Source: an uncultured Burkholderiaceae bacterium
GTDB lineage: Bacteria; Pseudomonadota; Gammaproteobacteria; Burkholderiales; Burkholderiaceae
Length of the DNA stretch: 6,559 bases
NCBI GenBank assembly: GCA_937871985.1
Contig: CALMPB010000113.1
Location: 1 to 6,559, forward strand
Direction of reading: 5' to 3'
This document shows positions 2 through 6,438 of the stretch, one piece after another; position 1 is the stretch's first letter, and every line of letters starts with the position of its first letter. The notes beneath the pieces are model-generated. The model ran no database searches. It saw nothing but the letters and a program-made list of their open reading frames with translations, and was not told where the DNA came from. The position numbers and the translations under genes were made by a program.

Positions 2-82
2 GCCCGCGAATTGGCACCGGACAGCGCCGCCGCACGCGAAATCACTGCATTGGTGGATGAACTATTGCGGTGGTCGCCATGA
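2..82 (+). CDS. parA: C-terminal end of a ParA-type partition ATPase (5' truncated)
   Basis: Only the last 26 codons are inside the window; the frame opens at base 2 and ends at TGA 80-82. The visible tail reads ARELAPDSAAAREITALVDE and continues LLRWSP. An 'ELAPDS...AREI..LVDEL' ending is typical of the C-terminal helix of ParA/MinD-like ATPases in mobile elements. No Walker motif is available because the N-terminal part lies upstream. The stop overlaps the next start codon (ATGA at 79-82), so it is translationally coupled to the small gene that follows. The ParA assignment rests on this short tail plus the gene order known for Tn4371-like ICEs (parA, small gene, DUF2840, traF, relaxase), so it is mostly inference from context. 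Confidence 0.6.
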   Translation, partial: ARELAPDSAAAREITALVDELLRWSP

Positions 83-354
83 GCAGCGACAGCAACTCAC
101 CGAACGGCAAACGCACGGGCAAGCGCATCACCATCGGTGCGCGTCCGCCCACGAATCCGCACGCCGAGGCGTGGATTCGTCAGGGCGATACCGCCGACCT
201 CCAGAAAGGCGACCTCTACACGGCCCGCCTGACCATCGACATCACACCCGCCTTGCGGGCGCGCATCAAGGTCTCGGCCTTCACGCAAGGCATGACTGTG
301 GCCGACTTGCTGCGCGCACTGCTGGAGCGCGAGTTCCCGGAGAACACACCATGA
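79..354 (+). CDS. Small ribbon-helix-helix protein of the partition operon
   Basis: A 91-residue protein with a basic, low-complexity N-terminus (GKRTGKRITIGARPP) and a C-terminal half that fits a ribbon-helix-helix fold: strand YTARLTIDI near residues 48-56, helix TPALRARIKVSAFTQG near 57-72, then helix TVADLLRALLEREF near 74-87. Such folds bind DNA as dimers, and lying directly behind parA it probably acts as the DNA-binding partner (a ParB or ParG-like role) or as operon repressor; this is inferred. ATG 79 was chosen because it forms an ATGA overlap with the parA stop. An in-frame GTG at 70 would add three residues (MVA) and has no better ribosome site. The stop at 352-354 overlaps the next start. 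Confidence 0.8.
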   Translation: MSSDSNSPNGKRTGKRITIGARPPTNPHAEAWIRQGDTADLQKGDLYTARLTIDITPALRARIKVSAFTQGMTVADLLRALLEREFPENTP

Positions 355-896
355 CTGCAAACCATCAAGTGCAGCCGGTAGCAGAAACGGCTGCACTCAT
401 ACAACCGCCACATAGACTCGCCGGCCAGGCCGACAGCGTGCCACTGATTCGCGTCTCGCTGGCCTTCATTGACCGGCGTTTCAACCTCTACCTGCGCTTT
501 GGCGAACCGGCACGCACGCTCCAGCTCGATCGCTGGCGGCGCTGCGCAATGTTCCTGCCCGCGTCCGTGTTCTGTCGTGTGCGTTGGCAGGCCAACGACT
601 ACGGCACCACGCGCTGGCAGCTCATGGTAATGCAGGCTTGCACGCCACTGGACACGGTGCAGCGCATCCCCGGCGTACAGCCCGGCGCGCGCCTGCTGCT
701 GCATGTCGAGGGCGACCAAAAGGTGCGCGCCGTGCTGGAAAAAATCGACGCTATCGAAGCGTTGGGTATCGCCGCTATCGACGTGTCGACCGCGTACTGG
801 CGCACGTTGGGCAACCGTCTGGCAGCGCGCCTTTCGCTGCCGAATTACAGCGCCGAGCGGCACATCGCCTGGCTGGCTGGGAGGGGATTGCAATGA
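351..896 (+). CDS. DUF2840 family protein
   Basis: A 181-residue soluble protein that I recognise as DUF2840, a family found almost only between parA-like genes and traF-like peptidases in ICEs and related islands. The family-like core runs from about residue 30 (PLIRVSLAFIDRRFNLYLRF) through WQANDYGTTRWQL, IPGVQPGARLLLHVEGD, and KIDAIEALGIAAIDVS to YWRTLGNRL. No catalytic motif, signal peptide or membrane segment is evident, and its biochemical role is unknown. ATG 351 has a GGAG Shine-Dalgarno at 339-342 with 8-base spacing and overlaps the preceding stop (ATGA). The frame is open back to base 57, but that extension overlaps the upstream gene in another frame and is not family-like. Its stop overlaps the traF start. 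Confidence 0.88.
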   Translation: MTANHQVQPVAETAALIQPPHRLAGQADSVPLIRVSLAFIDRRFNLYLRFGEPARTLQLDRWRRCAMFLPASVFCRVRWQANDYGTTRWQLMVMQACTPLDTVQRIPGVQPGARLLLHVEGDQKVRAVLEKIDAIEALGIAAIDVSTAYWRTLGNRLAARLSLPNYSAERHIAWLAGRGLQ

Positions 897-1441
897 CAGC
901 CGAACCTCGCTCGCGTCCGCGCATTCGCATCGTGCTGGCCGTCCTGTCCGCCTGCGGCCTCGCTGCGTTGGCCTGGGCGTCCTTCGTGCAGCCTGCGGCG
1001 CACGTCATCTACAACCGCTCTGACAGTGTTCCGGTCGGCTGGTATCGCATTGAGCGGGCCGACTCGCCGCCACGTCCTTTGTCCGTGGGCAACATCGTGC
1101 TGACCCGACTTCCGGCAGACGCAGCCGCACTGGCTGCACAGCGCGGCTACCTGTCGTTGCACATCCCACTGCTCAAACGTGTGGGCGCGGTCGCGCCACA
1201 ACACGTCTGCATCGTGGACGCTCAGGTGCACATCGACGGCGTGCCGGCGGTTGCCGTGCAGCCTGCCGACCGCATGGGCCGTTCCTTGCCATCCTGGCCG
1301 CAGTGTCGACCGCTGGCCGATGGCGAACTGTTCCTGTTGAGTGCGACCAATCCGGCGTCGTTCGACAGCCGTTACTTCGGGCCGATCCAGACATCCGCCG
1401 TGATCGGCACAGCGCATCCCATCTACTTGGAGAAGCAGTGA
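893..1441 (+). CDS. traF: TraF-like S26 signal peptidase of conjugative transfer
   Basis: A 182-residue S26 family serine peptidase. One N-terminal membrane segment (about residues 11-36, IRIVLAVLSACGLAALAWAS) anchors it in the inner membrane with the catalytic domain in the periplasm. The Ser box is NRSDSVPVGWY at 41-51, with Ser45 the predicted nucleophile; the Lys base is in LLKRVGA, Lys95; the C-terminal box is FDSRYFGPI around 157-165. In RP4, TraF matures and cyclises the TrbC pilin, and the same role in mating-pair formation is inferred here. Cys106 and Cys138 could form a disulfide. ATG 893 has a GAGGGG ribosome site at 881-886 and an ATGA overlap with DUF2840. A longer in-frame extension upstream overlaps that gene and is rejected. 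Confidence 0.9.
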   Translation: MTAEPRSRPRIRIVLAVLSACGLAALAWASFVQPAAHVIYNRSDSVPVGWYRIERADSPPRPLSVGNIVLTRLPADAAALAAQRGYLSLHIPLLKRVGAVAPQHVCIVDAQVHIDGVPAVAVQPADRMGRSLPSWPQCRPLADGELFLLSATNPASFDSRYFGPIQTSAVIGTAHPIYLEKQ

Positions 1442-2010
1442 TGACCTTGCTTGACTTCCTGCCTCGCTGGCACGTTGACCTTTGTCTTCCATGCAGCACA
1501 CTCGTCGCGCTACTGCTTGTTGTTGTCGTGCTATCAGGCGTGCCGATGGGCATGTGTTCGCCGTGTCGCCATGCGTGCAGTGCGAGCGCATCCGCGCTGC
1601 ACTTCGCACGGCATCCTCTGTGGCTTTTGCGCTGCATGGTTTTGCACGCCGCTGCGCATGTCCATGCGCACTTCGGCGTGCATTCCCCTGTGCAGATTGC
1701 TTGCCACGAACGCACCATGCCTGCGGCATGGCAGGCGTTCGTCGGTCGGCAGACTGCGCTCTGCGCAGCGCCGCCGGGGCATCGCATTCCCGTGCCGTTA
1801 GGCCAGGAAAAGATGCAGGGCAAGATAAAAGGTCGCGGCACGTTGTTGCGCGAAAAAGCAGTCTGCACGTGGGGGCGGCGCGGCACGCGCTGGTTGCGGC
1901 ACCGTGCCGCGTGGATCGCCAAGGCCTTGTCGGCATTGAGCCAAGCGCGTGCCTCGCACGCTTGGCTGCGACAGCCTTGGATGGGGATAGCGCATGAACC
2001 GCAACGATGA
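1441..2010 (+). CDS. Doubtful ORF between traF and the relaxase gene
   Basis: A 189-codon open frame whose ATG overlaps the traF stop (TGATG) and lies 8 bases after GGAG at 1429-1432, so initiation is plausible. It would encode one hydrophobic segment near residues 18-37 (CSTLVALLLVVVVLSGVPMG), then a His-, Cys-, Arg- and Trp-rich tail with no family I recognise. Evidence against it: it runs through a chain of large DNA hairpins, the other two plus frames are also open across 1482-1801, its composition is unlike normal proteins, and it overlaps the relaxase gene by 17 bases. A rival frame, 1482-1997 (171 codons, Cys/Arg/Ala-rich), ends in an ATGA overlap with the relaxase start, the junction style of this operon, but it has no clear ribosome site. 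A short membrane peptide or no gene at all are both possible. Confidence 0.25.
   Translation: MTLLDFLPRWHVDLCLPCSTLVALLLVVVVLSGVPMGMCSPCRHACSASASALHFARHPLWLLRCMVLHAAAHVHAHFGVHSPVQIACHERTMPAAWQAFVGRQTALCAAPPGHRIPVPLGQEKMQGKIKGRGTLLREKAVCTWGRRGTRWLRHRAAWIAKALSALSQARASHAWLRQPWMGIAHEPQR
1574..1610. repeat. Hairpin A
   Basis: Outer stem CGTGC (1574-1578) with GCACG (1606-1610); internal loop A1579 opposite TTC (1603-1605); inner stem GTGC (1580-1583) with GCAC (1599-1602), G1584 bulged, then AGCGC (1585-1589) with GCGCT (1594-1598); apical loop ATCC. The outer stem can be lengthened with ATGC 1571-1574 and GCAT 1611-1614 if one G is bulged. Confidence 0.6.
1643..1682. repeat. Hairpin B
   Basis: Outer stem TGCACGCCG (1643-1651) pairs perfectly with CGGCGTGCA (1674-1682); internal loop C1652 opposite CTT (1671-1673); inner stem TGCGCATG (1653-1660) pairs perfectly with CATGCGCA (1663-1670) around a two-base centre TC. 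Seventeen base pairs within 40 bases makes it the strongest dyad in the window and able to form a cruciform or a stable single-strand hairpin. Confidence 0.75.
1706..1742. repeat. Hairpin C
   Basis: Outer stem ACGAACGC (1706-1713) pairs perfectly with GCGTTCGT (1735-1742); internal loop A1714 opposite CAG (1732-1734); inner stem CCATGCC (1715-1721) pairs perfectly with GGCATGG (1725-1731); loop TGC. Fifteen base pairs in 37 bases. Its stems differ in sequence from hairpin B while keeping the same 1/3 internal loop. Confidence 0.75.
1747..1773. repeat. Hairpin D (mirror orientation)
   Basis: Inner stem CTGCGC (1754-1759) pairs with GCGCAG (1763-1768) around TCT; a short outer stem CGGC (1747-1750) pairs with GCCG (1770-1773). 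The internal loop is AGA on the left opposite C1769 on the right, the reverse of hairpins A to C. It is weaker because the outer stem has only four pairs. Confidence 0.45.
1791..1911 (-). other. Candidate origin of transfer core: CGCGGCACG repeats around a TATCTTGC site
   Basis: The 9-mer CGCGGCACG occurs at 1834-1842 and 1879-1887, inverted at 1903-1911, and as a 7-base inverted match CGTGCCG at 1791-1797. GCGGCAC (1896-1902) and GTGCCGC (1904-1910) also make a tight palindrome. Between the first two inverted copies, the minus strand carries TATCTTGC (complement of 1820-1827), about 10 bases past a CGTGCCGCG arm. Relaxases related to RP4 TraI cut in a (T)ATCCTG/C core beside an inverted repeat; this site differs by one C-to-T change. 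With the relaxase gene starting only about 80 bases downstream, an oriT is a reasonable but unproven reading. The strand given is the one with the candidate nick. Confidence 0.35.
1939..1967. repeat. Hairpin just before the relaxase start
   Basis: AGCCAAG (1939-1945) pairs with CTTGGCT (1961-1967), a CG bulge lies on the left, then CGTGC (1948-1952) pairs with GCACG (1956-1960) around CTC. Twelve pairs in 29 bases. No T-run follows, so it is not a standard terminator. It ends 26 bases before the relaxase ATG and could be a relaxase-binding dyad, an autoregulatory site or an RNA structure affecting translation. Confidence 0.6.
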
Positions 2011-3940
2011 TGACCGTTTTCGCATCCGCCCAGGGGCGCCCAAGCAGCGCGGCGACGCCTTCATCAGCCAGGTGCTGCGCCAGACGAGCAAGGCCGGAGT
2101 CAAGGCCGCCAAGGCGAGCCATCGACCCGGTGCCCGGCTGGGGCGCGGACACGTCGCAGCCCGCTTTACCGGTACATCGCTGACCGCTGGTTCCCGGCGC
2201 GTGACCATCAAGACCCGGCTGGTCAATCTCGCCAAGGCCGGGCCGCGTTCGACGGCTACGCACCTGCGCTACATCGAGCGCGAAGGTGTGGGGCGCGATG
2301 GCGAACCGGGCAACGCCTATGGCCCGGCGACTGATGATGCCGACTTGGCTGCCTTTGAGAAACGAGGCCGCGAGGACAGGCACCAATTCCGCCTCATCGT
2401 CTCGCCCGAAGAGGCCGAACAGCTCGACGATCTGCGCACCTACACCCGCCACCTGATGGCCCGCATGGAAGCCGATCTGGGCACGCGGCTGGAGTGGGTA
2501 GCGGTCGATCATTGGAATACTGACAACCCGCATACGCACGTCGTTCTGCGCGGCAAAGATGATGGTGGCCGTGACCTCATCATTTCCCGCGACTACATCA
2601 GCCAGGGGATGCGCGAGCGGGCCTCGGAACTGGCGACTGAATGGCTGGGGCCGCGTACCGAACTGGAGATCCAGCGTGGCATGCAACGCGAAGTCGATCA
2701 GGAGCGATGGACGGGGTTAGACCGCACCTTGCAGCGCGAGGCCGTGGATGGAGTGGTGCGCACCGCACGGCTGGAGGCGGAACCCCGACTGCAACACCAG
2801 CGGCTGCTGCTGGTGGGACGCCTGCAACGCTTACAGCGTATGGGGCTGGCGAGCGAAATGCAGACCGGCGTCTGGGCTGTCCATGCCGATGCCGAACCCA
2901 CGCTGCGGGCGATGGGCGAACGCGGCGACATCATCCGCACCATGCAGCGGGCCATGAGCGGCAAGCAGCGCGATCTGGCCGTGTTTCAGCCCGGCGAGGA
3001 TGGCCGCACCCTTGTCGGTCGCGTGGCTGGCAAGGGGCTGACCGACGAGCTGTACGACAAGAGTTACTTGATTGTCGATGGCACCGATGGCAAGGCGCAC
3101 TATGTCGTGCTACCGCCCAGGACGGAACTGGAGCAGTACCCGACTGGTGCGGTGGTGGAGATCAAGGGATCGGCCGCCGCCCGTGCGGCGGACAAGACCA
3201 TTACAGCGATGGCCGCCGATGGCATCTACCGCACCGACCATCATCTGGCGGTTGCCAAAGCCCAGCCGCACCCTGACCGCGATCCCAGTGAAGTAGTCGA
3301 AGCCCATGTCCGCCGACTGGAAGCCCTGCGCCGTGCTGGCCTTGTGGAACGGCTGGCCGAAGGCGTCTGGAAGGTGCTAGACGACTTGCCCGAGCGGGGT
3401 CGCCAGTACGACACACAGCGCCTGGGCGGCGTGGCCGTGGAGCTGAAATCACACATGCCCATTGAGCGGCAGGCCCGCGTGATCGGCGCGACCTGGCTGG
3501 ACCAGCAGTTGATCGGCGGCGGCAAGGGCTTGGGAGATATGGGCTTTGGCCGCGAGGTCAAGAACGCATTGCAACAGCGCGCCGACTTCCTGGGCGAACA
3601 GGGATTGGCCGAGCGGCGCGGGCAGCGTGTGATCCTGGCGCGCAATTTATTGGCGACACTACGCAACCGCGAGCTGGTGAAGACCGCGCAAGACATTGCC
3701 GCCGACACCGGGCTGGAACATCGGCTGGTGGCCGACGGGCAGCGCGTGGCTGGTATCTACCGGCGCAGCGTTATGCTCGCCAGCGGGCGCTACGCCATGC
3801 TCGATGACGGCATGGGGTTCAGCCTGGTGCCGTGGAAGCCAGTGATCGAACAGCGGCTGGGGCAGCAGGTCGCTGCGACAATGCGCGGGGGTGGGGTGTC
3901 GTGGGAAATAGGGAGGCAGCGCGGGCCTTCGGCCGGCTAA
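1994..3940 (+). CDS. rlxS: Conjugative relaxase, VirD2-like with DUF3363 region
   Basis: A 648-residue protein that would nick the element at oriT, stay bound to the 5' end and pilot the strand into the recipient. The N-terminal nuclease domain spans roughly residues 68-220: THLRYIEREGV with Tyr93 the candidate nucleophile, DRHQFRLIVSPEEAEQL (His130), and the metal-binding cluster DHWNTDNPHTHVVLRG with His173, His180 and His182. The rest, about 250-640, is the DUF3363-type region seen in relaxases of Tn4371-like ICEs, ending VPWKPVIEQRLGQQ and VSWEIGRQRGPSAG. The length fits the family and no lesion is visible. The start ATG 1994 has GGGGA at 1983-1987 with about 7-base spacing. Hairpins and repeats directly upstream may be its target. 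The symbol follows Tn4371-family usage and is by analogy. Confidence 0.9.
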   Translation: MNRNDDDRFRIRPGAPKQRGDAFISQVLRQTSKAGVKAAKASHRPGARLGRGHVAARFTGTSLTAGSRRVTIKTRLVNLAKAGPRSTATHLRYIEREGVGRDGEPGNAYGPATDDADLAAFEKRGREDRHQFRLIVSPEEAEQLDDLRTYTRHLMARMEADLGTRLEWVAVDHWNTDNPHTHVVLRGKDDGGRDLIISRDYISQGMRERASELATEWLGPRTELEIQRGMQREVDQERWTGLDRTLQREAVDGVVRTARLEAEPRLQHQRLLLVGRLQRLQRMGLASEMQTGVWAVHADAEPTLRAMGERGDIIRTMQRAMSGKQRDLAVFQPGEDGRTLVGRVAGKGLTDELYDKSYLIVDGTDGKAHYVVLPPRTELEQYPTGAVVEIKGSAAARAADKTITAMAADGIYRTDHHLAVAKAQPHPDRDPSEVVEAHVRRLEALRRAGLVERLAEGVWKVLDDLPERGRQYDTQRLGGVAVELKSHMPIERQARVIGATWLDQQLIGGGKGLGDMGFGREVKNALQQRADFLGEQGLAERRGQRVILARNLLATLRNRELVKTAQDIAADTGLEHRLVADGQRVAGIYRRSVMLASGRYAMLDDGMGFSLVPWKPVIEQRLGQQVAATMRGGGVSWEIGRQRGPSAG

Positions 3941-4186: not shown

Positions 4187-4597
4187 ATGAGTTTTCCTCT
4201 CGAAGTCGCTGAAGCCGTCGCGGCAGCTGCTAAAGCCACAACCAACGCCGAAGGCTTTCCAGCGGTGTGTATCAGCATCGTCGATGCTGCTGCTCATCCG
4301 GTTCTATTTGTTCGCATGGACGGAGCAATTCTGGGTGCCATTGATGTGGCCACTCGCAAGGCCCGTACTGCCGCTCTGTTTCAGAAAGACAGCGCTGAGC
4401 TGGGCAAAATCGCGCAACCGGGTGCTATCTGTTACTCCCTGGAACACACCAACGGCGGCTTGATCAGCTTTGGCGGTGGAGTCGTATTGCGCGACAAAAA
4501 CGGAGATCTGATCGGAGCAGTTGGTATTTCCGGTGCCAGCGTCGAGGAAGACGAAATCATTGCTCACGCCGCTGCACGAGTAGCCTCATACGCTTAG
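4187..4597 (+). CDS. GlcG/HbpS-like (DUF336) protein
   Basis: A 136-residue protein of the GlcG/HbpS (DUF336) family. Family signatures are ISIVDAAAHPVLFVRMDGA at about 28-46, followed by ATRKARTAALF, then SFGGGVVLRD and IGAVGISGASVEEDE near the C-terminus. Some members bind haem (HbpS) and others accompany glycolate or aromatic catabolism genes; which applies here cannot be told. No signal peptide is seen, so it is probably cytoplasmic. ATG 4187 has a GGAG site at 4176-4179 with 7-base spacing and gives the expected N-terminus MSFPLEVAEAV. An upstream in-frame TTG at 4124 would add 21 unrelated hydrophobic residues and is not favoured. It is the first gene of the cargo operon, with the MFS gene 9 bases after its stop. 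Confidence 0.85.
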   Translation: MSFPLEVAEAVAAAAKATTNAEGFPAVCISIVDAAAHPVLFVRMDGAILGAIDVATRKARTAALFQKDSAELGKIAQPGAICYSLEHTNGGLISFGGGVVLRDKNGDLIGAVGISGASVEEDEIIAHAAARVASYA

Positions 4598-4606
4598 GAG
4601 TTCATT

Positions 4607-5788
4607 ATGCCGTACGCCCTGCTTGCGCTGGCCATCTCCACATTCGCCATTGGTACGACTGAGTTTGTGATTGTTGGTCTGATTCCTGAAATGTCCCGAG
4701 ATCTGAACGTCTCGGTCCCCACCGCAGGCCTTCTGGTCAGCCTTTATGCATTGTCTATCACTGTGGGAGGTCCGACCTTCTCTGCGCTCGCCGGGCGTTT
4801 TTCCCGCCGTGGGCTAATCATAGGCTTGATGGTCATTTTCACTCTGAGCAATCTTGCCGCCGCGTTCGCTCCCGGCTACGGAACACTGCTTGCAGCGCGG
4901 ATCGTCATGGGGGTAGCCCATGGCGTGTTCTTCGGTGTGGGGGCTGCCGTCGCCATGTCGCTTGTTGACAGATCAAAGGGTGCAAGTGCTGTCGCTGTGA
5001 TGATGGGCGGACTCACCATCGCCATGGTCGTTGGTGTTCCATTGGGTTCGTGGGTTGGTCAAGCCTTCGGTTGGCGCACGCCATTCCTGGCAGTCACAGC
5101 GCTCGGGATAATCAGCTTGATCGGACTGTTCCTGTTTCTGCCCAAGCATATTCCCCATACCCCACAAAGTGGATTCCTGTCGCAGCTTGCGTTGCTCGGC
5201 AATCCTCGACTGAGCCGCTTGTATCTGATTACCGCACTCAGTTTCGGCGGTACTTTTGTGGTCTTCACCTTCCTGTCACCACTTATGACCGAGGTCACCG
5301 GGGTCAACGAGTCAACGGTCAGTTGGGCGTTGATGTTGTTCGGCGGTGCCACCGTAGTCGGTAACTTCATCGGCGGGAAGCTGGCGGATGCACTGGGCTC
5401 CAAACAAGCACTGAGCATCATGCTGGTCGGGCTGATCCTCAGCCTTCTGGCACTCCCGCTGACGGTGTATCATCTGTTTCCCATGCTCATCAACATCACG
5501 CTGTGGGGCATCTTCGCCTTCGCCATTTCGCCCATCATGCAATCGGCGGTGGTTGCCCTGGCCCAGGTAGAAGCTCCGAACGCCATCGATACCGCTTCCG
5601 TGTTCAACATCGCCGCGTTCAATCTGGGAATAGCAAGCTGTTCCTTCATCGGCGCCAAGCTGGTCGCTGGTCCTGGACTGCTCGCCACCCCATGGGCCGC
5701 TGTGGCATTCGCAGTACTGGCATTGATCATCACCACATTGTTCATGCAGGGCAAAGTCAAAAACACACTGGCGGAGGGTGCAGTATGA
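4607..5788 (+). CDS. MFS transporter of the DHA1 drug/metabolite exporter type
   Basis: A 393-residue inner-membrane protein with about 12 hydrophobic segments. The first helix carries GTTEFVIVGLIPEM (16-29), the typical opening of DHA1 exporters such as YdhP/AraJ-like proteins, with Glu19 in the membrane. The loop 2-3 motif A is AGRFSRRGL (62-70), motif B is ARIVMGVAHGVFFG with Arg98, and motif C, a mark of antiporters, is GVPLGSWVG (143-151). Proton-driven export of a small molecule is therefore likely; the substrate is unknown. AGGAG at 4596-4600 lies 6 bases before the ATG. The stop overlaps the next start by ATGA, implying coupled translation with the FrnE-like oxidoreductase and a joint role in handling the same compound. 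Confidence 0.9.
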   Translation: MPYALLALAISTFAIGTTEFVIVGLIPEMSRDLNVSVPTAGLLVSLYALSITVGGPTFSALAGRFSRRGLIIGLMVIFTLSNLAAAFAPGYGTLLAARIVMGVAHGVFFGVGAAVAMSLVDRSKGASAVAVMMGGLTIAMVVGVPLGSWVGQAFGWRTPFLAVTALGIISLIGLFLFLPKHIPHTPQSGFLSQLALLGNPRLSRLYLITALSFGGTFVVFTFLSPLMTEVTGVNESTVSWALMLFGGATVVGNFIGGKLADALGSKQALSIMLVGLILSLLALPLTVYHLFPMLINITLWGIFAFAISPIMQSAVVALAQVEAPNAIDTASVFNIAAFNLGIASCSFIGAKLVAGPGLLATPWAAVAFAVLALIITTLFMQGKVKNTLAEGAV

Positions 5789-6438
5789 GCAAGTCGGTAA
5801 AGATTGAATTCGTGTCCGATATTTCTTGCACGTGGTGCGCTATCGGAATCAAGAGTCTGGAAGCCGCTATCGCAGCCGTAGGTCCAGAGATCGAAGTCGA
5901 CGTGCACTTTCAGCCCTTCGAGCTGAATCCCGACATGCCGGCAGGCGGACAAAACCTGACCGAGCACATCGGTCAGAAATACGGTTCATCACCAGCCTCC
6001 TGGGCGACGTCGCGCGAAAGCATCCGTCAACGGGGAGACGCCGTGGGATTCACGTTCAACCTGAGCGAGGACAGCCGAATCTACAACACCTTCGACGCTC
6101 ACCGGCTGCTGCATTGGGCGCGGTTGGAAGGCAAGCAAGTCGAACTTAAGCGCGCATTGATGACTGCCCATTTCAGCGAAGGCCAGGACCCTGGAGATCC
6201 AGGGGTTTTAATCAGGGCGGCTGTTACGGCAGGTCTGAATGCAGAGACAGCCCGCTCCATCCTGGGTTCAGACGCCTATATCGAAGAAGTTCGTCGTTTG
6301 GAAAAACGTTGGATGCAAGAAGGCGTCAGGGTCGTACCCACTTTAGTACTGAACGGTGCCCAAAGGGTCGAAGGCAGCCTGCCAGCTAAAAGCTACGAAC
6401 AGTTGATCCGCGAGGCAGCGGCGTCAACAACGGTGTAA
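5785..6438 (+). CDS. FrnE/DsbA-like thioredoxin-fold oxidoreductase
   Basis: A 217-residue protein of the DsbA family, FrnE-like branch (related to 2-hydroxychromene-2-carboxylate isomerases). After the first strand (VKIEFVSDIS) comes the active site Cys15-Thr-Trp-Cys18, then the large alpha-helical insertion (about 55-175, including FDAHRLLHWARLEGKQ and MTAHFSEGQDPGDP), and the cis-proline loop VRVVPTLVLNG with Pro185. FrnE proteins more often have CPWC, so Thr16 is a variant. No signal peptide is present, so it acts in the cytoplasm, as a thiol-disulfide enzyme or a thiol-dependent isomerase. FrnE relatives occur in polyketide clusters and in stress responses. ATG 5785 overlaps the MFS stop; GGAGG at 5773-5777 is a good ribosome site. 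Confidence 0.9.
   Translation: MSKSVKIEFVSDISCTWCAIGIKSLEAAIAAVGPEIEVDVHFQPFELNPDMPAGGQNLTEHIGQKYGSSPASWATSRESIRQRGDAVGFTFNLSEDSRIYNTFDAHRLLHWARLEGKQVELKRALMTAHFSEGQDPGDPGVLIRAAVTAGLNAETARSILGSDAYIEEVRRLEKRWMQEGVRVVPTLVLNGAQRVEGSLPAKSYEQLIREAAASTTV

Follow-up and report, generated by a model that had tools for sequence, protein, structure and literature searches.

The window, by which we mean the whole stretch of 6,559 nucleotides analysed here, represents the core of an ICE of the Tn4371 family. Its genes follow the order probable RHH gene, DUF2840 gene, gene for a traF-like S26 signal peptidase, open reading frame (ORF), gene for a DUF3363/RlxS-type relaxase, and then cargo genes (Table 1). 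The TraF_Ti match of the peptidase gene (3e-26, 92 bits) lies under that model's own cut-off of 100.25, and the relax_RlxS match of the relaxase gene (1.3e-200, 668 bits) is likewise below its cut-off of 850. The ORF shares 1 base with the traF stop and extends 17 bases into the relaxase gene. Three annotated relatives show the order repA, parA, ParB or a hypothetical gene, DUF2840, S26, a hypothetical gene in two of the three, and relaxase. The cargo past the relaxase (4187-6438) comprises genes for an HbpS-like protein, an MFS transporter and a DsbA-like protein, a layout that agrees with the description of variable cargo after the relaxase (PMC2789088). A C-terminal DUF3363 fragment, corresponding to residues 427-644 and 43-44% identical, was found in plasmid records H47-H75, which are mostly enterobacterial plasmids. 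We take this fragment to be, perhaps, a relaxase relic travelling with captured resistance cargo.

Table 1. Features of the window on which the analysis bears. z values are for codon shuffles of 52 sequences, plus/minus strand.
Feature	Position	Strand	z	Remark
Probable RHH gene	79-354			RHH_10, 25.6 bits, below the cut-off of 27
traF-like S26 signal peptidase gene	893-1441	+		Upstream neighbour; Pfam Peptidase_S26, 2e-27
ORF	1441-2010	+		189 aa from ATG at 1441, over the whole oriT interval
CGTGCTATCAGGCGTG motif	1527-1542	+		Same pattern upstream of the relaxase in relatives
HP1 (dyad 1)	1574-1610	.	-2.03/-1.57	Conserved, compensatory changes; 12 nt extra inside in some relatives
HP2 (dyad 2)	1643-1682	.		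1/3 loop; intact in this window only, among the sequences examined
HP3 (dyad 3)	1706-1742	.	-1.72/-2.32	Strongest covariation; 1/3 loop in the window, variable in relatives
HP4 (dyad 4, full)	1743-1776	.	-1.96/-1.71	Pairing kept, covariation slight; 1747-1773, as first described, is the inner part
oriT core	1819-1841	-	+0.50/+0.82	GGCAAGATAAAAGG... on the plus strand; TTTTATCTTG followed by CC on the minus strand; equivalent of the essential positions 261-318 (PMC11448139)
REPT1 equivalent	1832-1851	.	-0.69/-1.06	Inverted repeat beside the core, weak in the window; hairpin -7.7 kcal/mol
REPT2 equivalent	1878-1912	.	-2.44/-2.45	10-bp outer stem
Relaxase gene (traI/rlxS-like, DUF3363)	1994-3940	+		Pfam DUF3363, 3.9e-150

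The interval that holds the dyads sits between traF and the relaxase gene, in the window as in its relatives, which is where the oriT of the Tn4371 family lies. This oriT is already known from ICEKKS102Tn4677: a study published in 2024, in which it is stated that no oriT had been identified in the family earlier, cloned the 463-bp traF-traI region and showed it to be oriT (PMC11448139). According to that study, the essential part spans positions 261-318 and holds the inverted repeat REPT1 along with a conserved 20-bp sequence that includes CAAAAGG; nic most likely lies inside the 20 bp, and transfer is enhanced by REPT2. For REPT1 and REPT2 what seems to matter is the presence of an inverted repeat, not its particular sequence, and transfer was not lost when the traF side was deleted as far as position 261. 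The study also names two LysR motifs and a REPT3 (PMC11448139).

The window has the equivalent core at 1819-1832 (GGCAAGATAAAAGG), reading TAAAAGG, one base off CAAAAGG. The core pattern is present in 114 of 115 distinct intervals from relatives and the window, as GACAAAAGG in 31, GATAAAAGG in 73 and other variants in 10, and 100 of the 114 have it 176 nt ahead of the relaxase start. Five relatives whose interval is 460 nt long and whose core has CAAAAGG served for the mapping onto the ICEKKS102Tn4677 oriT. The core falls inside positions 261-318 in all five, and in three of them these positions end exactly with the REPT1 palindrome; HP1, HP3 and HP4 lie at positions 74-243 in four of the five, the fifth being outside the alignment. 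REPT1 is a clear palindrome in relatives (L100, for example), and alifold of 1816-1862 gave no consensus stem. The REPT2 inverted repeat is found on the traI side of the core. The core and the two repeats map to 1819-1912, outside the coordinates given in the earlier note on this DNA, from which the oriT core (1819-1851), REPT2 and the ORF were all absent. One of its guesses, that the dyads belong to an oriT accessory region of a Tn4371-like ICE, is supported by PMC11448139 together with the mapping of the core in relatives. As a separate observation, GGCAAGATAAAAGG occurs unchanged upstream of the relaxase gene in the Mesorhizobium plasmid pMLb (L143:2251-2500), the relaxase of which is 40.3% identical.

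On the minus strand, TATCTTGC matches the MOBP nick consensus (C/T)ATCCTG(C/T) (PMC3772185) at 7 of 8 bases, with one mismatch (ATCTTG). From this likeness we infer that the nick is probably placed on the minus strand, opposite the 1820/1821 junction.

Near the traF edge of the interval lies a copy of the motif CGTGCTATCAGGCGTG. The strict pattern recurs inside the traF-relaxase interval in 10 of 65 loci with enough upstream DNA, and others have a near match there. Further copies, mostly 23-24 bp apart, are located 2.3-3.1 kb upstream of the relaxase start, three in 44 and two in 10 of the 65 loci. Judged by the gene order of one relative (L145), this array should fall in the repA-parA gap, and it may represent a partition-type site or an iteron, of which one more copy would stand at the border of the oriT region.

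Folding and conservation of the dyads

The earlier note described four neighbouring dyads with a common layout, in which an internal loop with one base on the left and three on the right separates an outer from an inner stem, mirrored as 3/1 in the fourth. All four dyads are present at the positions given, and the layout holds for part of them. HP2 and HP3 fold with the 1/3 loop, and HP4 can be drawn as 3/1, as in the centroid structure of the minus strand folded as DNA, the plus-strand minimum being slightly different. HP1 instead folds as three 5-bp stems separated by a 0/2 and a 1/0 bulge. The 203 nt from 1571 to 1773 are much more stable than dinucleotide shuffles, both as plus-strand RNA (z -4.80) and as minus-strand DNA (z -5.43), with 0 of 200 shuffles equally stable in either case. 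There are six strong local hairpins in 1441-1993, compared with 3.65 +/- 1.31 in shuffles, a count reached by 7 of 100 shuffles; the number of hairpins by itself is weak evidence.

Two known classes of element were rejected. Sites of the attC type, which the earlier note had mentioned, carry boxes of the GTTRRRY type; the window has nine such boxes (7.92 expected), none of them on either strand of 1571-1773 (the nearest is at 1797-1803), and an attC or integron site was rejected on this basis. Rfam covariance models gave no match at gathering score across the whole window. A possible fifth hairpin, CCGGGC...GCCCGG at 1775-1806, is seen in many relatives; it corresponds to a profile peak near 1795 with z -1.44, yet z was about 0 when that stretch was tested directly.

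Relatives were collected by a relaxase-start scan, of which the best 80 of 237 confirmed loci were used, and by two family-wide genome searches, in which 53 of 268 genomes and 61 of 398 gave matches. According to the database records, nearly all are beta- and gammaproteobacteria, comprising genome contigs and plasmids, some from clinical sources; a near-match search of E. coli genomes gave no match. The resulting 143 sequences (142 loci and the window) yielded 138 intervals from S26 stop to relaxase start, 115 of them distinct, after five sequences had been dropped in which a neighbour gene was not located. Removal of seven intervals with in-frame stops left 108, of which 88 are 380-600 nt long, with 54 representatives. 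L001 and L003 were excluded from the codon alignments on account of a shift in their frame. The tree tests, which use 1560-1866, were then made with 86 sequences, and alignment A1 and the codon shuffles of single hairpins with 52 representatives. For HP1, 47 of 51 rows were taken into alignment A2 and 33 of these 47 into A3; the other 14 have a tip insertion, a truncation or diverged sequence. A G-test over all columns was swamped by an alignment artefact, misaligned frames beyond the core, and yielded no clean per-pair E-values.

Shuffles that keep the protein and the codon usage (54 sequences) reveal local minima of folding energy at HP1, HP3, HP4 and REPT2, while the core is unstructured (Table 1). 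Of the 52 sequences used for single hairpins, only 7 have any letters in the region of HP2. The mean codon-shuffle z is -0.50 for the ORF, -0.34 for S26 and -0.17 for the relaxase, the neighbouring genes thus being mildly negative too.

Pairing is retained while the stem sequences change. In HP3 and the outer stem of HP4 (A1, 52 sequences) 90.9% of the cells are paired, and 48 cells are changed on both sides, compared with 13.4 in shuffles (reached in 0 of 500) and 3-9 in slid controls. The corresponding values for HP1 (A3, 33 sequences) are 90.5% paired and 23 both-sided cells versus 7.8 (0 of 500); the number of pair types in HP1 shows no excess over shuffles (242 of 500), and the number of pairs with a both-sided change is not clearly above them (41 of 500). 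Against a null of 200 simulations on the tree of the 86 relaxases, the paired share is higher than in any simulation for HP1 (0.911 vs 0.699, null maximum 0.808), HP3 (0.949 vs 0.760, maximum 0.884) and HP4 (0.849 vs 0.680, maximum 0.824). Because one and the same change is repeated among related sequences, the number of both-sided cells does not by itself exceed this null (HP1, 60 vs 40.4 +/- 17.8; HP3, 54 vs 31.1 +/- 15.1; HP4, 4 vs 8.6). Double changes on the same branch of the relaxase tree keep the pair in 35 of 43 cases for HP1, 28 of 32 for HP3 and 2 of 8 for HP4, where 100 simulations gave at most 9, 7 and 3 pair-keeping double changes, respectively. Slid pairs, which would be subject to the same recombination, keep no more than 6 at HP1 and 10 at HP3. 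With the region's own tree, the numbers kept are 18 of 27, 13 of 19 and 4 of 10, and slid pairs of HP1 and HP3 keep at most 4. HP1 and HP3 are therefore true conserved structures, in which paired changes clearly exceed both the tree-based and the slid controls, and their covariation refutes a chance origin of these two dyads. HP4 stays paired and its covariation is weak.

The loop layout is not conserved. A lone 1/3 loop is present in 10 of 86 relatives of HP3 (counted over the eight commonest layouts), and the commonest layout of HP1 is a 1x1 loop plus a 1/0 bulge (27 of 84), which rules out the 1/3 loop as a family signature and does not support the conserved architecture that the earlier note had proposed. 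The covariation for which it had suggested a test is found in dyads 1 and 3, to a slight extent only in dyad 4, and in the company of loops that are not invariant. Dyad 2 is excluded as a conserved member of the family, being intact only in the window among the sequences examined; in L003, which aligns across the whole interval at 85%, 10 of its 16 pairs are kept and 6 broken, with none compensated. Decay of the stems in a frame that is kept with a synonymous bias, the outcome that would speak against selection on structure, describes dyad 2 at most.

A model of the HP3-HP4 unit, with the window among its training sequences, was used to search 47 of 148 sources and found one copy in each of 26; within these 47 sources the unit was absent from 19 relatives with short intervals (259-343 nt), from L050 and from the Mesorhizobium plasmid L143. 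The commonest indel in 50 pairs of relatives is 12 nt long (22 of 50 indels). In HP1, in HP3 and in the first part of the ORF, but not in HP4, the sequences fall into length classes that differ by 12 nt. Taken together, HP1 and HP3 (by covariation) and HP4 (by retained pairing and codon shuffles) are shown to be inverted repeats at fixed places with changing sequences, like REPT2, which lies beyond the nic core.

An open frame across the interval

The homologous frame is found in 79 of the best 80 loci. Joined to the S26 stop, it is free of stops in 108 of the 115 intervals, and over 75 less redundant intervals it contains 6 stops, whereas the two alternative frames contain 128 and 120. It starts at an ATGA overlapping the S26 stop in 103 of 115. 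In most relatives the frame also closes with an ATGA, which there overlaps the start of the relaxase gene. Division of the interval length by 3 leaves 1 in 106 of 115, the window being among the exceptions. In the window, L001, L002, L003 and L006 the ORF runs 16-19 nt past the relaxase start because they have one base fewer near 1890 than many relatives, and the last third of the window ORF is shifted accordingly.

Before the core, pN/pS of the ORF is 0.76 (0.68-0.84; 36 disjoint pairs), compared with 0.35 for S26 and 0.19 for the relaxase, and it overlaps the value of the +1 frame (0.85, 0.77-0.94), the remaining frame having 0.93 (0.83-1.04). After the core it is 0.90 (0.77-1.04) and the +1 frame is lower (0.78). 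A wider pooled comparison pointed in the same direction. In the same 36 pairs pS is 0.144 for the ORF, 0.264 for S26 and 0.304 for the relaxase, so that silent changes are about half as frequent in the ORF. The frame is stop-free, the amino acids are weakly constrained and pS is low; therefore the frame is kept open while much of the constraint acts on nucleotides. The suggestion of the earlier note that selection acts on a folded nucleic acid is confirmed by the covariation of dyads 1 and 3 and by structure beyond codon shuffles in dyads 1, 3 and 4. Its addition 'rather than on a protein' is not fully supported, since the interval retains an open frame throughout.

The possibility that the ORF encodes a real small protein, the hairpins being a by-product of GC-rich codons, is in our view very unlikely, despite the conservation of the frame. 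The ORF of the window has no Pfam or NCBIfam match, whereas 1291 database proteins match the ORF of L145 at E <= 0.001, hypothetical or uncharacterized where named among the best 120 of the 1291. It is annotated as a hypothetical protein in L145 and L146, and no gene is listed at this place in L144 and L147, for which the gene table is incomplete. The structure in excess of shuffles that preserve protein and codon usage and the pN/pS values, close to or above those of the +1 frame, rule out an ordinary protein gene as the sole cause.

Possible roles of the hairpins and comparison with known systems

We hypothesize that the chain of dyads is the leading-side half of an extended Tn4371-family ICE oriT, with accessory inverted repeats that act as folded DNA, and we give this reading an even chance. 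The relaxase would nick the minus strand between TTTTATCTTG and CC; the minus strand would therefore be transferred, with the hairpins in its first ~250 nt. The hairpins would thus lie on the leading side of nic, in the traF-side part that was dispensable in the plasmid assay (PMC11448139). Because the region up to position 261 can be deleted and the hairpins map to positions 74-243, neither nicking nor the transfer of a small plasmid that has a replicon of its own is likely to depend on them. Several candidate roles would escape such an assay, namely second-strand synthesis of the ICE, fine-tuning of the relaxosome and operon control of relaxase synthesis. Since the equivalent part of ICEKKS102Tn4677 was not needed to mobilise the plasmid, the folded DNA would most likely act after or around nicking, as a single-strand origin or priming site for the second strand or in the architecture of the relaxosome. 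The open frame may best be explained if ribosomes on the traF-ORF-traI mRNA have to pass through oriT in order to get to the start of the relaxase gene.

The folding strand was sought from G.T and A.C changes, strand energies and strand-specific codon shuffles, with no consistent answer. One-sided changes to G.T and A.C number 39:41 in HP1, 39:23 in HP3 and 7:8 in HP4, and the strand with the more extreme codon-shuffle z flips from hairpin to hairpin. Because these signals disagree, they fit single-stranded DNA, mRNA and a cruciform alike. The excess of G.T changes at HP3 is what would be expected if the hairpins worked in the traF-ORF-traI mRNA, for example in translational or transcriptional control of relaxase synthesis, with the open frame allowing ribosomes to melt them. 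The stop/start overlaps on both sides of the open frame in most relatives and the weak constraint on amino acids compared with both neighbours agree with an mRNA role, and so does the dispensability in PMC11448139, as a cloned oriT plasmid has no need of such control. HP1 and HP4, however, have no G.T excess, HP3 itself is more extreme on the minus strand, and 1441-1993 contains no promoter-like site and a single terminator-like site (1619-1636; 0.8 expected), and we consider a role in the mRNA rather doubtful.

The lack of a consistent strand bias would also suit operator-like palindromes recognised in double-stranded form by dimeric accessory proteins, such as the RHH protein, a ParB-like protein or TraR, and both a probable RHH gene and a repeated motif (1527-1542) are at hand. 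We think this unlikely, as the stem sequences diverge while pairing stays, some relatives have 12 nt extra inside HP1 or HP3, and in PMC11448139 the inverted repeat of REPT1 and REPT2 seems to matter rather than its sequence. That the dyads as a group arose by chance in GC-rich DNA can hardly be credited: the hairpin count reached by shuffles and the lack of conservation of dyad 2 fit this view, but the fact that dyads 1 and 3 covary and are conserved in position does not.

Returning to an oriT with folded accessory repeats, we tentatively speculate that the whole oriT, including the nic core, is translated. It would lie inside a bridging frame selected for freedom from stops and hardly for amino acids, while the covarying DNA hairpins of the leading half would serve the incoming single strand, as a Gram-negative ICE analogue of sso1. 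If this were true, one stretch of DNA would answer to the ribosome, the relaxase and second-strand synthesis together. A frame over oriT with little amino-acid constraint looks like a frame for passage, not product, and the presence of conserved structures in a part called dispensable by one deletion assay (PMC11448139) raises the question of what the first DNA through the channel must fold for. In the main text of the open-licence literature we found no description of conserved traF-side hairpins or of a translated oriT in the Tn4371 family.

The closest known system is the oriT of ICEKKS102Tn4677 (PMC11448139), which likewise lies between traF and traI and has a core with (C/T)AAAAGG, CAAAAGG there and TAAAAGG in the window, alongside the inverted repeats REPT1 and REPT2. 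That study treats the interval as intergenic, whereas we report here covariation, an open frame and conserved hairpins on the traF side. In ICEMlSymR7A, traF, the gene msi107 and oriT precede the related relaxase gene rlxS (PMC11963761). The Mesorhizobium plasmid pMLb has the same core upstream of its relaxase gene but differs in that DUF736 and transglycosylase genes stand between S26 and relaxase, and the HP3-HP4 model finds nothing there. The MOBP oriT of the RP4/VirD2 type (PMC3772185) has an inverted repeat 5' of the nick motif, as REPT1 and REPT2 are 5' of the core on the minus strand; the window differs by the one mismatch in its nick motif and by additional hairpins that would lie 3' of nic. 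Like the dyads, sso1 of ICEBs1 (PMC4595007) has three predicted stem-loops near an ICE relaxase gene; its host belongs to another phylum, and the window hairpins are putative priming sites at most. The Frpo single-stranded DNA promoters of F (PMC9849209) are also stem-loops in leading-region DNA. In contrast to these, a linear scan of 1441-1993, which covers hexamers other than those rebuilt by folding, found no sigma-70 promoter-like hexamers, and transcription from the window hairpins on the presumed transferred strand would head towards nic, away from the leading genes.
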